From an uncultured bacterium (lineage in GTDB: Bacteria > Krumholzibacteriota > Krumholzibacteriia > LZORAL124-64-63), in contig CAIWHK010000065.1 in the NCBI GenBank assembly GCA_903912525.1, positions 124,001 to 188,000 on the forward strand: DNA of 64,000 nucleotides, read 5' to 3'. Made by a program: the position numbers and the translations under genes. Below, piece by piece: positions 6,287 to 53,025 of this stretch. The notes beneath the pieces are model-generated. The model saw only the letters and a program-made list of their open reading frames with translations. It was not told the DNA's origin and searched no databases. The stretch's first letter is position 1. Every line of letters starts with the position of its first letter.

Positions 6287-7558
6287 ATGCGATTTCGATC
6301 GTGGGTGCCGGTAACTCTGGTGACCCTTGCGGCGCTTTCGTGCACAAAGAACCCCGATACTCCCGGGACGCCGATTTCCGGAGGCATCCGTGGCGTCGCC
6401 CGGGCCAGCGCGGACAGCACCGTCATCGCCGGCGTTGCTATCACGACGTCGCCCCCGACGACCACGGCCGTCACCGACAACCGTGGGCAGTACGAGATCA
6501 CCGGCGTTCGTCCCGGCGAGTATGACGTCTCCGCCGCCAAGAGCGGCTACGAGCCGGCAGGGGTCAGCGCGGTGGTCAATATCCTGAGATTTACAGAAAT
6601 CGATTTCCAGTTGACCGGCACCAACCTCGACAATTCACCTCCCAATGCCCCGATCCTGCTGTACCCCGACAGCGCGGCCACTAATGTGCCGACGTCGCTC
6701 ACTCTCATGTGGACCGGGAGCGATCCGGATAGTGATCCGCTGGTCTACGATGTCTATGTTGACACGACGGCGACGGCACTGAAGACCGGGGCGGCGAAAA
6801 AGGAATCAGGTTACTTTCCGCTGTCCGGACTGCTCGGCAATCAAAGGTACTACTGGCACATTGTGGCGCGCGACGACCGCGGCGGGTCCGGCACCAGCCC
6901 CGTGCGCTATTTCACGACGCGCCCCGACACGATTCCCGTCGAAGGCCTGCTGGCTTACTACCCGTTCAACGGCAATGCGAACGATGCCAGTGGCCATGGC
7001 AATCACTGCTCGGTGGTCGGCGCCACGGCGTCCCCTGACCGGCAAGGCACGCCGAACAGCTCCTATAGTTTCAATGGCAGCTCATACATCGTGGCCGGGA
7101 ACAACAGCGTCGGCAATTTCTCAGGAAACACGACGATCTGTTTCTGGGTCAACTGTGCGGCCGGCGCCGGCGGCATGGTCATGGACAAGGACAACTACGA
7201 CTACTACTGGTTCAGCGTCGGGACCAATGGACTGAATTTCACGATCAGTTTCGACTGGGCCTACTCCAGCACCACCGAAATGGTGTCGCGGAGCCAGTTG
7301 GAGGGCAGGTGGAACTTCGTCGCGGTCGTCATCGAAAACTACTCGTACATCATCTACGCCAACGGCAACCGGGTCACGCAGGTCAACATTCCGCAGAACG
7401 CCGTGATCAACGTACAACCGCTGACCTTCGGGCGCTCGAGCTACTGGGGGACCAGCTACTTCACTGGGATGACCGATGACGTCCGGATCTACGGGCGGGC
7501 GCTGAGTGCGTCGGAGCTCGGCGCGCTCTATCGCGAAAACGGCTGGACCGGCAATTGA
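6287..7558 (+). CDS. Lipoprotein with carboxypeptidase-regulatory, FnIII-like and LamG domains
   Basis: A 423-residue exported lipoprotein. ATG 6287 is preferred over GTG 6266 and ATG 6281 because GGAGGG at 6274-6279 sits 7 bases upstream and the product starts with a lipoprotein signal ending LAALSC. Domains in order: a carboxypeptidase-regulatory-like beta domain (about 30-105, GVAITTSPPTTTAVTDNRGQ, GEYDVSAAKSGY); a fibronectin type III-like domain (about 115-215, NAPILLYPDSAATNVP, YYWHIVARDDRGGSG); and a concanavalin/LamG-like lectin domain (about 225-415, LLAYYPFNGNANDASGHGN, DDVRIYGRALSASE). Such proteins usually sit on the outer membrane surface and bind glycans or other proteins. The stop overlaps the ATG of a longer reading of the next gene, consistent with an operon of secreted proteins 4800-8865. 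Confidence 0.8.
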   Translation: MRFRSWVPVTLVTLAALSCTKNPDTPGTPISGGIRGVARASADSTVIAGVAITTSPPTTTAVTDNRGQYEITGVRPGEYDVSAAKSGYEPAGVSAVVNILRFTEIDFQLTGTNLDNSPPNAPILLYPDSAATNVPTSLTLMWTGSDPDSDPLVYDVYVDTTATALKTGAAKKESGYFPLSGLLGNQRYYWHIVARDDRGGSGTSPVRYFTTRPDTIPVEGLLAYYPFNGNANDASGHGNHCSVVGATASPDRQGTPNSSYSFNGSSYIVAGNNSVGNFSGNTTICFWVNCAAGAGGMVMDKDNYDYYWFSVGTNGLNFTISFDWAYSSTTEMVSRSQLEGRWNFVAVVIENYSYIIYANGNRVTQVNIPQNAVINVQPLTFGRSSYWGTSYFTGMTDDVRIYGRALSASELGALYRENGWTGN

Positions 7559-11744: not shown

Positions 11745-13484
11745 ATGAAGCCCACCCGCCCGCTGCTGTGCGCGCTCCTCGCCGCAGCCGTCCTGTTCGG
11801 CGCCTCCGCCGCGGCGCACGCCCAACCCTGGGCCCTCGGCGACACGCTGACCGTGATCCAGAAGCCTCTTCTGAACATCCCGTCCATCGTCCTGCCCGGC
11901 AGCACCCTGGACATCTCCTGCGAAGCCGCGCCGGCGACCACCGGCTGGACCGCCAGCCTCGAGCGCGGCACGTTCAGCATCCCGCTGGTCATCCAGTCCT
12001 CGCACTACGATGCGACGACGCTGTGGTGGACGCTGACCGCGCTGGTGCCCGACGTGCCCGTCTACGACATGTACGACCTGCGCGTGACGGCGGCCGGCGG
12101 CATCAACGACGTGACGCGGCATGCGGTGAAGGTGCAGTTGACCGATCCGGACGACTTCTACTTCATCCAGCTCACCGACACGCACCTGCCCACCTACCTC
12201 TACTACTACGAGGCCGGCGCCGACACCGACAGTTCGTCCACCATCAGCCTGCGGCACATCATCAACGATGTGAACATCATCAACCCGGCGTTCGTGGTGG
12301 TGACCGGCGACTTCATCAACGACGGCGAGATGGAGGACTACCTGGGCAAGCGCCACTACAGCCGCGCCCAGCAGCAGTTGCGCGAGTTCCAGGTGCCGCT
12401 GTACCTGATCGCGGGCAACCACGACATCGGCGGCTGGGACTCGACGCCGCCGCCGGACGGCACCTCGCGGCGCACCTGGTGGCGCTTCTTCGGCTGGAAG
12501 CGGCTCAGTAACCCGCCCGTGGGCGCGCCGTTGCGCACGCAGAACTACAGCTTCGACTACGGCCCGGTGCACTTCGCCGCCATGGAGGCCTACGACAACT
12601 ACGACGGCTGGCGCAGCGAATTCTATGGTTCCACCAGCTTCACGTCGCAGCAGCTGCTGTGGCTGCAGCAGGACATGGCGGCCACCCACCGCACCACCAA
12701 GGTGCTGTTCCACCACTACGATTTCGCCAGCCAGCTGGCCTTGTCGTCGCCGGGCCTGAATATGACGCTCGGCGGCCACATCCACTCGAACCGCGACGAC
12801 GCGACCGCGCCCTACGACATCCTGACCGACAATGCGAGCGGCACCAACCGGCCCTTCCGCCTGGTGCGCTTCACCGATGGCCGGCTCGACCCGCGGCCCA
12901 CGCTCGGGGCGGGGTTGAACGGCCAGACCATGACCGTGGGCTACGCGCCGGCCAACGATGGCACGCATGACCAGGTGACGGTGACCATCAATAACGGGTA
13001 TGCGGAGCGGTTCGAAGGCGGCCGCATCAAGGTGGCGATGCCCGCGGACGCCGTGCGCTACACCGTCACCGGCGGCGTGCTGGATCAGGTCGACAACACG
13101 GCGAACCCCGCCGTCTGCTATATCTATGTCGACATCGCCGCGTCAGCGACGACGACCGTCACCGTGGCGGTGGACAACGCCGCGCCGGTCGAGGGAACGT
13201 CCGCCGCATCGACGCGACTGCTGGGCGCGCATCCCAACCCGTTCAACCCGCGCACCGAGATCGCCTTCGAACTCGACCGACCGACGTCGTGCACGCTGAT
13301 CGTCTTCGATCTGCAGGGTCGCCAGGTGGTCCGGTTGATCGATGCAGAACTGGACGCGGGTACCCATCGCATCGCGTGGCAGGCTGACAATCCGCAGGGC
13401 AATCCGTTGCCATCGGGTGTCTATTTTGTGTGCCTGCGGGCGGGCGAATATGCCGAGACAAGGAAATTGACGCTGGTGCGCTAG
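11745..13484 (+). CDS. Secreted metallophosphoesterase with FlgD-Ig C-terminal sorting-type domain
   Basis: A 579-residue exported calcineurin-like phosphoesterase. ATG 11745 gives a clear signal peptide (PLLCALLAAAVLFGASAAAHA). The metallophosphoesterase motifs appear in order: QLTDTHLP (D-x-H), VVTGDF (GD), LIAGNHDIGG (GNHD), LFHHYDF and GGHIHSN (metal-binding His). The substrate cannot be read from sequence; such domains act on phosphomonoesters, phosphodiesters or nucleotides. The last 80 residues start with HPNPFNPRTEIAFEL and end SGVYFVCLRAGEYAETRKLTLVR-like strands; this is the FlgD-Ig/type A C-terminal domain common on exported proteins of FCB-group bacteria and suggests secretion through a type IX-like route or cell-surface retention. 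It stands alone, with a terminator-like hairpin just after the stop. Confidence 0.85.
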   Translation: MKPTRPLLCALLAAAVLFGASAAAHAQPWALGDTLTVIQKPLLNIPSIVLPGSTLDISCEAAPATTGWTASLERGTFSIPLVIQSSHYDATTLWWTLTALVPDVPVYDMYDLRVTAAGGINDVTRHAVKVQLTDPDDFYFIQLTDTHLPTYLYYYEAGADTDSSSTISLRHIINDVNIINPAFVVVTGDFINDGEMEDYLGKRHYSRAQQQLREFQVPLYLIAGNHDIGGWDSTPPPDGTSRRTWWRFFGWKRLSNPPVGAPLRTQNYSFDYGPVHFAAMEAYDNYDGWRSEFYGSTSFTSQQLLWLQQDMAATHRTTKVLFHHYDFASQLALSSPGLNMTLGGHIHSNRDDATAPYDILTDNASGTNRPFRLVRFTDGRLDPRPTLGAGLNGQTMTVGYAPANDGTHDQVTVTINNGYAERFEGGRIKVAMPADAVRYTVTGGVLDQVDNTANPAVCYIYVDIAASATTTVTVAVDNAAPVEGTSAASTRLLGAHPNPFNPRTEIAFELDRPTSCTLIVFDLQGRQVVRLIDAELDAGTHRIAWQADNPQGNPLPSGVYFVCLRAGEYAETRKLTLVR

Positions 13485-32424: not shown

Positions 32425-32469
32425 AGCGCCGGCGCAGGTCCCTTCACGGGGCGACTTGCGCCGGCGCAA
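32425..32469. terminator. Hairpin terminator built from two copies of the GCGCCGGCGC palindrome
   Basis: AGCGCCGGCGCAGGT (32425-32439) and ACTTGCGCCGGCGCAA (32454-32469) pair with each other over about 14 bp around a small loop, and each half is itself a palindrome. It lies between the convergent LemA operon and the DUF1579 gene, followed by TTATTT on the plus strand. The right half is a copy of the dispersed palindrome family described under 51749-53025. Confidence 0.6.
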
Positions 32470-32505
32470 TTATTTGGGCAGCCCTTGCCGCCGGATCGAT
32501 CCAGG

Positions 32506-35050: not shown

Positions 35051-35107
35051 CTTCGGCGCGCGCGGCGGCGGACTTACGCCGGCGCAAGTGCGCTCAATGC
35101 GCCGAAG
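35051..35107. repeat. Composite palindrome upstream of the GH97 gene
   Basis: An inner near-palindrome ACTTACGCCGGCGCAAGT (35072-35089, one mismatch) lies within an outer inverted repeat CTTCGGCGC (35051-35059) / GCGCCGAAG (35099-35107). It sits in the divergent SulP-GH97 intergenic region, and its right arm reaches into the GH97 ribosome site. Member of the dispersed palindrome family. Confidence 0.75.
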
Positions 35108-51248: not shown

Positions 51249-51730
51249 TGCACACCAGCGCCGCCCTGCTCGACCTGCACGAACGCACCCACCGCAACCT
51301 GCGCGCGCTGCTCGAACACTGCCGCACCCTGGACGCCGACGAACTGAACCGCGACCTGCCCGGATTCGGCTACCCCACGGTGCGCCTGCAGTTGCACCAC
51401 ATGATCGGCGCCGAGGAATACTGGATCGGCGTGCTGAACGGCGTCGTCGAGGCCGACGACAACGATGCCGACTTCCCGACGATCGATACGCTGGTCGCCT
51501 GGCGTGACCGCGTGTCTGCGGCCACGGTCGCCTGGTTGCGCGGTGTCGACCCGGCCTTGCTGAACACCGCCCACCCGCACCAGACCTGGGGCGGCCGCGA
51601 ACGCACGCTGGCCCCCGCGCACGTCGTGCTGCGCACCCAGACGCACCTGTACCACCACCAGGGCCAGGTCACGGCGATGTGCCGACTGCTGGGCAAGCCG
51701 GTTGGCGGGCTGGATTTCCCGCTGGACTAG
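51248..51730 (+). CDS. DinB family protein
   Basis: A 160-residue four-helix-bundle metal protein. ATG 51248 overlaps the methyltransferase stop. Probable metal ligands: His in LQLHHMIGAEEYW (about residue 47), and the later pair in THLYHHQGQVTAM (about 136-140), giving the His3 site of DinB/YfiT/bacillithiol transferase-like enzymes. Members act in thiol transfer or detoxification; the specific reaction is unknown. The gene ends in a CTAG shared with the stop codon of the convergent HNH endonuclease gene. Confidence 0.85.
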   Translation: MHTSAALLDLHERTHRNLRALLEHCRTLDADELNRDLPGFGYPTVRLQLHHMIGAEEYWIGVLNGVVEADDNDADFPTIDTLVAWRDRVSAATVAWLRGVDPALLNTAHPHQTWGGRERTLAPAHVVLRTQTHLYHHQGQVTAMCRLLGKPVGGLDFPLD

Positions 51731-52803
51731 ATTCCTGCCGTCTGCCCGACTTGCGCCGGCCCAATTTGCGCCTGCCCAATTTGCGCCGGCGCAACTGTGC
51801 CGGCGCTCTCGTGTGCATGGCGATGGCACCGACTGCAGAGCGTGACCAGGTTCTCAGGCTTGTTCGACCCGCCCTGTGCGCGCGGCGTGAGGTGGTGGAC
51901 TTCCAGGAACCGCGTCGATCGGCATCCTGGTGACGCGCAGCGATGGCGATCGCGGGCGAGCACCGCGGCGCGCACCTTCGGGGGGATGGTGGATTTGTTC
52001 ACCCCGCCTGCGCGGCGCACCCGCGCGTCACACGCTGCCGCCGCCACTTGCGCCGGCGCAAGTGGGAGCTCGCCCCGCTGCGTGACCGCCGCCGCGGTGC
52101 TGCAATCGGGGCACTGGTGGATGACGATCTGCGTGGCGGGTCCCGCGTTCGCGGCGCTGTCGGCGCCGACGACCAGCGCCTCGAGTCCCGCCAGCACGGC
52201 TTCCAACCGGTCGGCGCCGTTCGCCAGCAGCCCCAGCTTGTGGGCCTTCTCGAGCAGCGCCTCGAACCGCGCCACCTGCAGGCCATCGCCCCGCAGGGTG
52301 ATGGTGGCGGGCAGGGGTTCGCGCGGCGCCGCTGCGGGCTCCGCGAACAGCGACCCCGCCGACGCCGACGGCGCTGCGACGGACTTGCGCCGGCGCAACT
52401 GCGTCACCGCGTGCGCCAGTTCGCGCCGCCCCGTGGTCGCGGCTTTGGCGACCCAAGCTGCCTGCGTGGCGGGTGTCGCCACCCGGGCCACCTGCTGCGC
52501 CTTGGTCCAGCCGAGCTGTCCCGACACCACGGCCTCCTTCAGGGCGGGCAGGCGTTCGAGGTCATCGGCCAGCCGCTTGAACTGCCAGTAGCGGTTGTCG
52601 GTGAAGCCGAGCGCCCCGGTTGCATACAGCTGGAGCGAGGCGAAGCCCAGCCCCCGGTACAGCTCGCGCCGCTGGACCTCGGCGAACCAGAGCACGGCGC
52701 ACTCGCGGGCGCGGTCGCAGACGTCCAGCGCCTGGCGCAGGGCGGCGTCGACCTGGGGAGCGGGCAGGCCGGGGGTGAAGGCGGTCAGCGTCATGGCGGT
52801 CAT
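51727..52803 (-). CDS. HNH endonuclease, carries palindrome copies inside its coding sequence
   Basis: A 358-residue protein; ATG 52803 (minus strand) has GAGG 5 bases upstream, with a promoter at 52852-52880. The N-terminal helical region (about residues 15-140; REL--GLGFASLQLYATGAL, LPALKEAVVSGQLGWTKAQ, ATPATQAAWVAKAATTGRRE) is that of the DUF222-like/13E12 HNH group. A central CPDC zinc-binding motif and CDARV follow. The nuclease domain (about 285-340) has KVRAAVLARDRHRCASPGCR, EVHHLTPRAQGGSNKPEN and LVTLCSRCHRHAHE: the HH, N and H of the beta-beta-alpha metal site plus structural Cys. Catalytic residues are intact. The gene contains two internal palindrome copies, in different frames (52045 encodes LAPAQV, 52383 encodes LRRRKS), and a cluster at its 3-prime end encoding repeated AQIG. 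Target DNA unknown. Confidence 0.9.
   Translation of the reverse strand: MTAMTLTAFTPGLPAPQVDAALRQALDVCDRARECAVLWFAEVQRRELYRGLGFASLQLYATGALGFTDNRYWQFKRLADDLERLPALKEAVVSGQLGWTKAQQVARVATPATQAAWVAKAATTGRRELAHAVTQLRRRKSVAAPSASAGSLFAEPAAAPREPLPATITLRGDGLQVARFEALLEKAHKLGLLANGADRLEAVLAGLEALVVGADSAANAGPATQIVIHQCPDCSTAAAVTQRGELPLAPAQVAAAACDARVRRAGGVNKSTIPPKVRAAVLARDRHRCASPGCRSTRFLEVHHLTPRAQGGSNKPENLVTLCSRCHRHAHESAGTVAPAQIGQAQIGPAQVGQTAGI
51749..51807. repeat. Cluster of three degenerate palindrome units at the HNH gene 3-prime end
   Basis: Units ACTTGCGCCGGCCCAA (51749-51764), TTTGCGCCTGCCCAA (51765-51779) and TTTGCGCCGGCGCAACT (51780-51796), then GTGCCGGCGC. Spacing is about 15 bases, so in the HNH reading frame they give a repeated AQIG/AQVG peptide at the C-terminus. 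Confidence 0.8.
52045..52064. repeat. Perfect 20-bp palindrome inside the HNH gene
   Basis: CACTTGCGCCGGCGCAAGTG, a perfect palindrome and the best copy of the dispersed family in this window. It lies within the coding sequence between the zinc motif and the nuclease domain. Confidence 0.92.
52383..52400. repeat. Palindrome copy inside the HNH gene
   Basis: ACTTGCGCCGGCGCAACT, one mismatch from a perfect palindrome, in the middle of the HNH coding sequence and read in a different frame from the copy at 52045. Confidence 0.88.
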
Positions 52804-52851
52804 GGTGGCCTCGGTTTCCGGGAGGAATTTGAGGTCGAAATTGATGGCGTA

Positions 52852-52880
52852 AAGATAGCGAAAATAATCGGCAACCGCAA
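52852..52880 (-). promoter_or_regulatory. Sigma-70-type promoter of the HNH gene
   Basis: Read on the minus strand: TTGCGG (52880-52875), 17-base AT-rich spacer, TATCTT (52857-52852). The surrounding 120 bases are much richer in A and T than the rest of the window. Leader about 40 bases. Confidence 0.5.
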
Positions 52881-52975
52881 GGGAAATATAGTCATTAATT
52901 GAATCGCGTACCGTATACCGAACACCGGACGGGGAGTGGCTGACCGGGGGCGACGGCATGGGATGAGGGTCGTGT

Positions 52976-53025
52976 CAGCGCCCGACTTGCGCCGCCGCAA
53001 GTGGCTCGTGCGACGGCCGGCGCTG
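52976..53025. repeat. Composite palindrome upstream of the HNH gene
   Basis: Inner near-palindrome ACTTGCGCCGCCGCAAGT (52985-53002; central mismatch) within an outer inverted repeat CAGCGCC (52976-52982) / GGCGCTG (53019-53025). Same two-layer plan as the copy at 35051-35107. Confidence 0.75.

Follow-up and report, generated by a model that had tools for sequence, protein, structure and literature searches.

Palindromes dispersed through bacterial genomes co-diversify with a multicopy HNH nuclease family that carries a predicted ParB/Noc-type domain

Results

The HNH gene of the window and its palindromes

The window analysed here is a stretch of 64 kb, in which an HNH nuclease gene lies on the minus strand as a 410-aa open frame (51727..52959; Pfam HNH PF01844, E 6.9e-12). 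The probable start codon is at 52803, giving a protein of 358 aa, and homologues align from residue 1 of this shorter form. On reading of the open frames beside the gene at the window locus, no DNA methyltransferase was recognised such as would accompany the nuclease of a type II restriction-modification system.

The palindrome ACTTGCGCCGGCGCAAGT occurs seven times in the window at up to 3 mismatches (32454, 35072, 51749, 51779, 52046, 52383 and 52985), against 0.10 copies expected from dinucleotide shuffles. One copy with 1 mismatch lies upstream of the HNH gene (52985..53002), about 190 bp before the probable start codon. Two lie inside the coding sequence, one perfect (52046..52063) and one with 1 mismatch (52383..52400), and three overlapping palindrome-like units, the middle one weaker (4 mismatches), occupy the 3-prime end of the gene (51749..51796). 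The remaining two, each with 1 mismatch, are dispersed at 32454..32471 and 35072..35089; none of these features is assigned a strand. All of the coordinates given in an earlier sequence-only reading of this DNA were recovered in a mismatch search of the window. The same reading was right in calling the two outlying copies intergenic (gaps 32407/32506 and 34889/35139) and in noting that the central in-gene copies are read in different frames, the perfect one as LAPAQV and the other as LRRRKS.

Distribution in the genome and genus

The palindrome had been described as concentrated at the HNH locus. As worded, this is not supported, and copies are not concentrated only around the window gene: the window's own 4.29-Mb genome (G000) contains 337 copies at up to 3 mismatches, while the reversed control gives 16. 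The count is far above what composition would produce. For the exact 14-mer TTGCGCCGGCGCAA, the four genomes of the genus gave counts of 296, 224, 141 and 176. Two genomes of one other genus gave 6, and the other relatives searched gave 0-1. ACTTGCGCCGGCGCAAGT is restricted to one genus.

Coding and intergenic calls were made with a simple hexamer-scoring gene finder written for the analysis, and these calls, like the junction statistics below, cover about 1.39 Mb from four genomes (0.46 Mb from G000). In a 458-kb sample of G000 that is 82% coding, 66 of 96 copies were intergenic; 25 of the 30 coding copies fell in nine HNH genes. Of the copies in the whole 1.39 Mb, 157 were intergenic and 72 fell within HNH genes, while 20 had coding or partial positions elsewhere. 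Gaps of all three orientations (convergent, tandem and divergent) received copies in proportion to their length, and the median distance of a copy was 52 bp from the 3-prime end of a gene but 193 bp from a 5-prime end. Exact copies share no flank beyond one G or C, and the unit is therefore 18-20 bp. A tandem array of four palindromes, with 38-bp spacing and partly conserved spacers, was seen on contig C5 of G000 (6555-6688; L001:1461-1594), and a 20-kb stretch of contig C7 (60001-80000; L121) holds 12 palindromes with repeated segments adjoining, a possible hot spot of segment exchange.

The HNH family is itself repeated. G000 has 11 copies, the window gene and 10 paralogues, and up to 18 relatives per genome were found across the family and class. 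Some paralogues contain internal stop codons or are shortened (e.g. L018:1073-2125), which indicates that the family turns over. Pfam HNH was matched by 70 of 70 aligned members. DUF222 (PF02720) was matched by 25 of 70 homologues (best 5.9e-9) and showed no match to the window protein. Carriage by phages was considered and rejected, as the viral contigs searched contained no relative, and plasmid and phage matches were confined to the HNH domain.

IS91-like transposases also occur near palindromes in this genus. A Y2_Tnp gene of contig C9 of G000 (L129:11017-12069) is accompanied by a palindrome at 12435-12452, and degraded copies are spread across the genus, several of them ending exactly on a palindrome that precedes the start of the transposase by about 375 bp. 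REPs are likewise dispersed palindromes (PMC3733652). It could be proposed that the palindromes are REP-like or MITE-like repeats moved by a RAYT or an IS91-like transposase, with the HNH genes as passive carriers, and the Y2_Tnp copies that end on a palindrome speak for such a mover. Against it, the palindromes have neither a REP tag nor a common flank. Y1_Tnp (PF01797) is absent from the palindrome-rich genomes G000, G001, G003, G018, G045 and G059, one short PF01797 fragment being present in G002, and Y2_Tnp is absent from G002, G018, G045 and G059. With no RAYT and no tag, REP/RAYT is excluded for most of these genomes, and we regard transposase-driven movement as a whole as very improbable.

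Palindromes kept inside HNH genes

Nearly all HNH genes of the genus contain the palindrome, each at two or three positions. In other genera, the HNH genes have different perfect palindromes of 14-24 bp, including GGCCCCCCGGGGGGCC, GTCCACCCGGGTGGAC, AGTCCACACGTGTGGACT, AGTACCCGCCGGCGGGTACT and AAATCGCTCCCCGGGGAGCGATTT, mostly near residue 211-248 and elsewhere near residue 285. No in-gene palindrome of at least 12 bp was found past codon 120 in 8 of the 70 aligned HNH genes.

Three results bear on what is conserved. When 32 genes were centred on the Arg codon of the PRG/TRV linker, with perfection not selected for, arm positions 6, 7 and 8 were complementary in 88, 84 and 62% of genes, with several pair types; with the centre shifted by at least 2 bp, the same positions were mostly 5-40% complementary. 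Of 57 HNH genes from other genera, 35 contained a palindrome of at least 16 bp, where synonymously shuffled versions gave 4.6. Within the genus, the palindromic codons, including those of the LAPAQV copy, are nearly fixed at synonymous sites, while for other conserved residues the top codon is used in 71% of cases. Together, these results indicate that the symmetry of the DNA is what is kept. The view that the palindrome rather than the peptide is conserved thus agrees with both the shuffling and the covariation, and the in-gene copies are not ordinary conserved codons, as homologues in genomes without the window motif carry other palindromes. The 8-bp core CCCCGGGG can come from PRG codons, and conserved PRG, TRV and RRR codons in GC-rich genes might appear palindromic by chance or protein constraint. 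This explanation is contradicted by the synonymous shuffling, by covarying arms of up to 24 bp and by the lineage-specific copies found genome-wide; its probability is close to negligible.

Co-diversification of palindrome and HNH clade

Were palindrome and HNH gene a pair, a palindrome read in an HNH gene would be expected to be enriched only in the matching genome, and three palindromes were searched in 27 genomes. TACCCGCCGGCGGGTA was found 88 times in G059, 7 times in G012 and at most once in each of the other 25 genomes. TACACGTGTA occurred 55 times in G018, 22 times in G049, 5 times in G045 and at most once in the others, and GTCCACCCGGGTGGAC 21 times in G045 and at most twice in the others. 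Every high-count genome had been named in advance from the palindromes that its HNH genes contain. Palindrome and HNH clade also go together in the tree, even in genomes with several clades and several palindromes (G007, G010, G027 and G033). The core of the own-lineage palindrome was present upstream of the gene (128-240 bp; search up to 300 bp) in 19 of 57 HNH loci, and the core of another lineage was found upstream in none of 570 comparisons. Because the palindrome carried in the HNH gene differs by lineage, enzyme and repeat appear to be a matched pair.

The placement of copies varies among genomes. In a sample from G018, 18 of 24 copies were intergenic and 4 were in HNH genes; in a mixed sample of 14 from G059, 4 were intergenic, 4 were called coding and 6 were at HNH genes; and several of the 21 GTCCACCCGGGTGGAC copies in G045 are at HNH genes. 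Unbiased palindrome counts in samples of 20-60 kb from other genera (G005, G007, G023, G028 and G060) showed no strong dispersal, and dispersal is thus not universal, being limited to some lineages. The dispersed palindrome of G018, TTTACACGTGTAAA, resembles canonical parS and occurs as two variants, mostly intergenic (e.g. L272:151 and L277:323).

Predicted structure of the HNH protein

AlphaFold models were obtained for the window protein (AF2, pLDDT 87) and for a relative from G018 (pLDDT 82). Both consist of an N-terminal helical domain, a linker and then the HNH domain. In the window protein, the N-terminal domain (about residues 15-143; 52375..52761, minus strand) is predicted from the AF2 model and Foldseek to be of the ParB/Noc DNA-binding type. 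The models of both lineages match the Noc DBD-NBS structure 6y93_A with a Foldseek probability of 0.99-1.00 and a TM score of 0.70-0.71, the window protein reaching 1.00 and 0.71, and the other high-probability PDB matches of this domain are Noc 7ol9 and ParBs. The E-values are weak (0.08-0.4), yet the high-probability N-terminal matches are ParB/Noc. HTH_ParB gave a weak match, below cut-off, in 15 of 39 family members, and one member matched the ParB-like phrog_4715 (E 3.7e-5). A sequence-profile search with the N-terminal domain alone found no PDB entry. By Pfam and the model, the protein has neither the N-terminal CTP-binding nor the C-terminal dimerisation domain of ParB/Noc; its C-terminal part is the HNH nuclease domain (about residues 275-333; 51805..51981, minus strand), which includes zinc cysteines and was identified by Pfam and by Foldseek likeness to EcoKMcrA/ScoMcrA. 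In the alignment of 70 homologues, H303, N318 and H327 are invariant, as are C289, C294, C323 and C326. The window protein is therefore predicted to be a ParB/Noc-type domain joined to an intact HNH nuclease.

The ParB/Noc DNA-binding fold binds palindromes of 14-16 bp, and the core types of its sites are CACGTG in parS and CCCGGG in NBS. Both the parS-type and the NBS-type core are present among the HNH-family lineages. In the 6y93 structure, the Noc domain is bound to its own palindromic site. ParB/Noc domains act in pairs on two-fold symmetric sites, and the specificity of ParB is changed from parS to NBS by four residues (PMC7383237).

Since the G018 palindrome TTTACACGTGTAAA is parS-like and the distribution is dispersed and intergenic, the palindromes might belong to another host protein, for instance as sites of a ParB/Noc-like factor, DNA-uptake signals or targets of restriction, with the copies in HNH genes acting as decoys or as recognition or silencing marks. 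However, the palindrome tracks the HNH clade, genomes with several clades having several palindromes, and the HNH protein itself contains a predicted ParB-type domain. We consider ownership by another protein improbable.

Homology ends at palindrome edges

Among genomes of the genus, homology ended within 2 bp of a palindrome in 16 of 274 cases, where random intergenic positions gave 3.0. This number is about five times chance and was reached in none of 500 random placements. At most junctions, homology continues through the shared palindrome as far as its far edge. The signal persists when the surroundings of Y2_Tnp are removed. The junctions were taken from draft MAGs, four in number and all of one genus, with contig ends excluded; an 18-bp repeat is shorter than the usual assembly k-mers. 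Flanks were collinear at 5 of 30 palindromes, 16 of 41 intergenic points and 44 of 65 random points.

Two exchanges were read base by base. On contig C9, a Fic gene lies between palindromes where G001 has an AAA gene instead; the right junction is exactly the palindrome and the left one is about 12 bp short of a palindrome. On contig C42, the stretch from the palindrome at the HNH 3-prime end to the next palindrome is wholly different (about 1,050 versus 310 bp), and homology on both outer sides reaches the palindromes.

No empty site for a bare palindrome was found, and the palindrome is kept in both genomes at 17 of 17 collinear sites. Spread of the bare palindrome as a clean insertion was thus not seen, and new copies seem to come with rearranged DNA. 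Ku was looked for in the genus and is absent, which makes simple cutting followed by NHEJ unlikely. Ends would more probably be joined by recombination between identical palindromes, or mended by repair from a paralogue, than sealed by classical end joining.

Discussion

In this study, an HNH gene family and a set of palindromes were found to be coupled and to diversify together, and we are highly confident that gene and palindrome form a functional pair. The proposal of the sequence-only reading, in which the palindrome is recognised or spread by the HNH protein or regulates it, has gained independent support from this co-diversification, from the predicted Noc/ParB fold, from the own-lineage palindrome upstream of the gene and from the junctions on palindrome edges. 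Our preferred explanation, which we judge moderately probable, is a palindrome-specific ParB-type HNH nuclease, a divergent relative of DUF222/REP13E12, with its own dispersed sites that are probably points of breakage and rejoining.

The steps of this explanation differ in strength. The palindrome would be the cognate site of the HNH protein, and the N-terminal ParB/Noc-type helix-turn-helix domain may bind the 18-bp site as a dimer; we consider direct binding likely. Most family members carry the lineage's own palindrome inside the coding sequence, often with another about 130-240 bp upstream of the start, and this upstream copy probably doubles as an operator. In the window's genus and in G018, G059, G045 and G049, the palindrome is also dispersed in tens to hundreds of copies. 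As the most likely mechanism, the protein would nick or cut DNA at its palindromes, and the breaks would then be healed, either by joining at identical palindromic ends or by repair from a second copy flanked by palindromes. Segments between palindromes, HNH genes included, would in this way be exchanged and multiplied, with the palindrome regenerated at every junction. Whether cutting drives the spread is, in our estimate, an even question, and the rearrangements may be caused by it. An argument against is that an enzyme able to cut the intact sites within its own gene would have to be protected, or to nick instead.

It is also possible that the protein binds without cutting, as a KorB-like or Noc-like regulator or nucleoid organiser whose operators are the palindromes; the HNH domain would then serve otherwise, for example in defence, and the junctions would be incidental. 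Noc sites (NBS) are also many and dispersed. Such a role would suit the predicted fold, the mostly intergenic sites and, for 19 of 57 loci, a copy of the lineage's palindrome at -130 to -240. However, a pure regulator should favour promoters, and no such bias was observed, the copies being nearer to gene 3-prime ends, which counts against regulation as the only role. The presence of up to 18 paralogues per genome, the homology breaks at palindrome edges and the invariant HNH residues also argue against it, and we consider binding without cutting unlikely, even if it is the foremost of the alternatives.

If the nuclease explanation is right in full, the family may represent a previously unknown class of mobile or genome-shuffling system, in which a ParB/Noc-type HNH nuclease cuts lineage-specific palindromes of 14-24 bp and has its own site within its gene, the segments between palindromes are exchangeable and the palindromes serve as junctions that can be carried along. 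Its relatives would then be the DUF222-HNH proteins found elsewhere, REP13E12 of M. tuberculosis among them. We put this wider claim forward tentatively, at somewhat less than an even chance. From the findings, a role in DNA recognition is proposed for DUF222-HNH proteins, a large family to which the REP13E12 repeats of M. tuberculosis, which are gene-conversion hot spots, belong. The ParB/Noc-type domains also make up a natural series in which cognate sites can be read: as each gene contains its site, the specificity of the protein can be matched to that of the DNA with no more than the sequence. Provided that the protein does cut, the family would be a nuclease-plus-repeat system of a new type, from which nucleases with long sites could be drawn.

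No description of an HNH-palindrome pair was found in a literature search, and several known systems share parts of this arrangement. The ParB-parS, Noc-NBS and KorB systems use the same DNA-binding fold, as predicted here, and palindromic sites of 14-18 bp. They differ in that the HNH family has an HNH nuclease in place of the CTPase and C-terminal dimerisation domains, is multicopy and has sites embedded in the gene itself. RAYT with REP/BIME is likewise an enzyme with short, dispersed intergenic palindromes that diversify together; here, in contrast, the repeat is a perfect symmetric 18-mer with unconserved flanks, lacks a GTAG/CGTC tag and has copies inside the enzyme gene. Free-standing HNH homing endonucleases also place an HNH gene at many loci and are tied to recombination boundaries. 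Homing genes disrupt their own target, whereas the window family keeps intact sites inside and upstream of the gene. Corndog-type (Cluster O) phages combine dispersed inverted repeats of 17 bp with a ParB-like gene and an HNH gene, 34 near-identical repeats being reported in the genome (PMC4351075). That system is a phage with a gapped repeat, and a link between repeat and HNH gene is not part of its description.

The DUF222-HNH proteins (13E12/REP13E12) of Mycobacterium and other Actinomycetota resemble the window family in having a helical domain before an HNH nuclease and in being multicopy, but the window protein has no DUF222 match. A cognate palindrome for the actinobacterial family was not found described in the literature. 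On a Rhodococcus erythropolis plasmid (NZ_CP050126.1), a DUF222-HNH-like gene is preceded, at a distance of about 95 bp, by CGTCCCCGCGGGGACG, a perfect palindrome of 16 bp (L258:1564-1579); this gene, the sole actinobacterial one looked at, has no in-gene palindrome. REP13E12 has been tied to HNH/DUF222 (PMC10589994), and its loci are among the most gene-converted of M. tuberculosis (PMC13061034). These gene-conversion hot spots are in line with a nuclease that provokes conversion.
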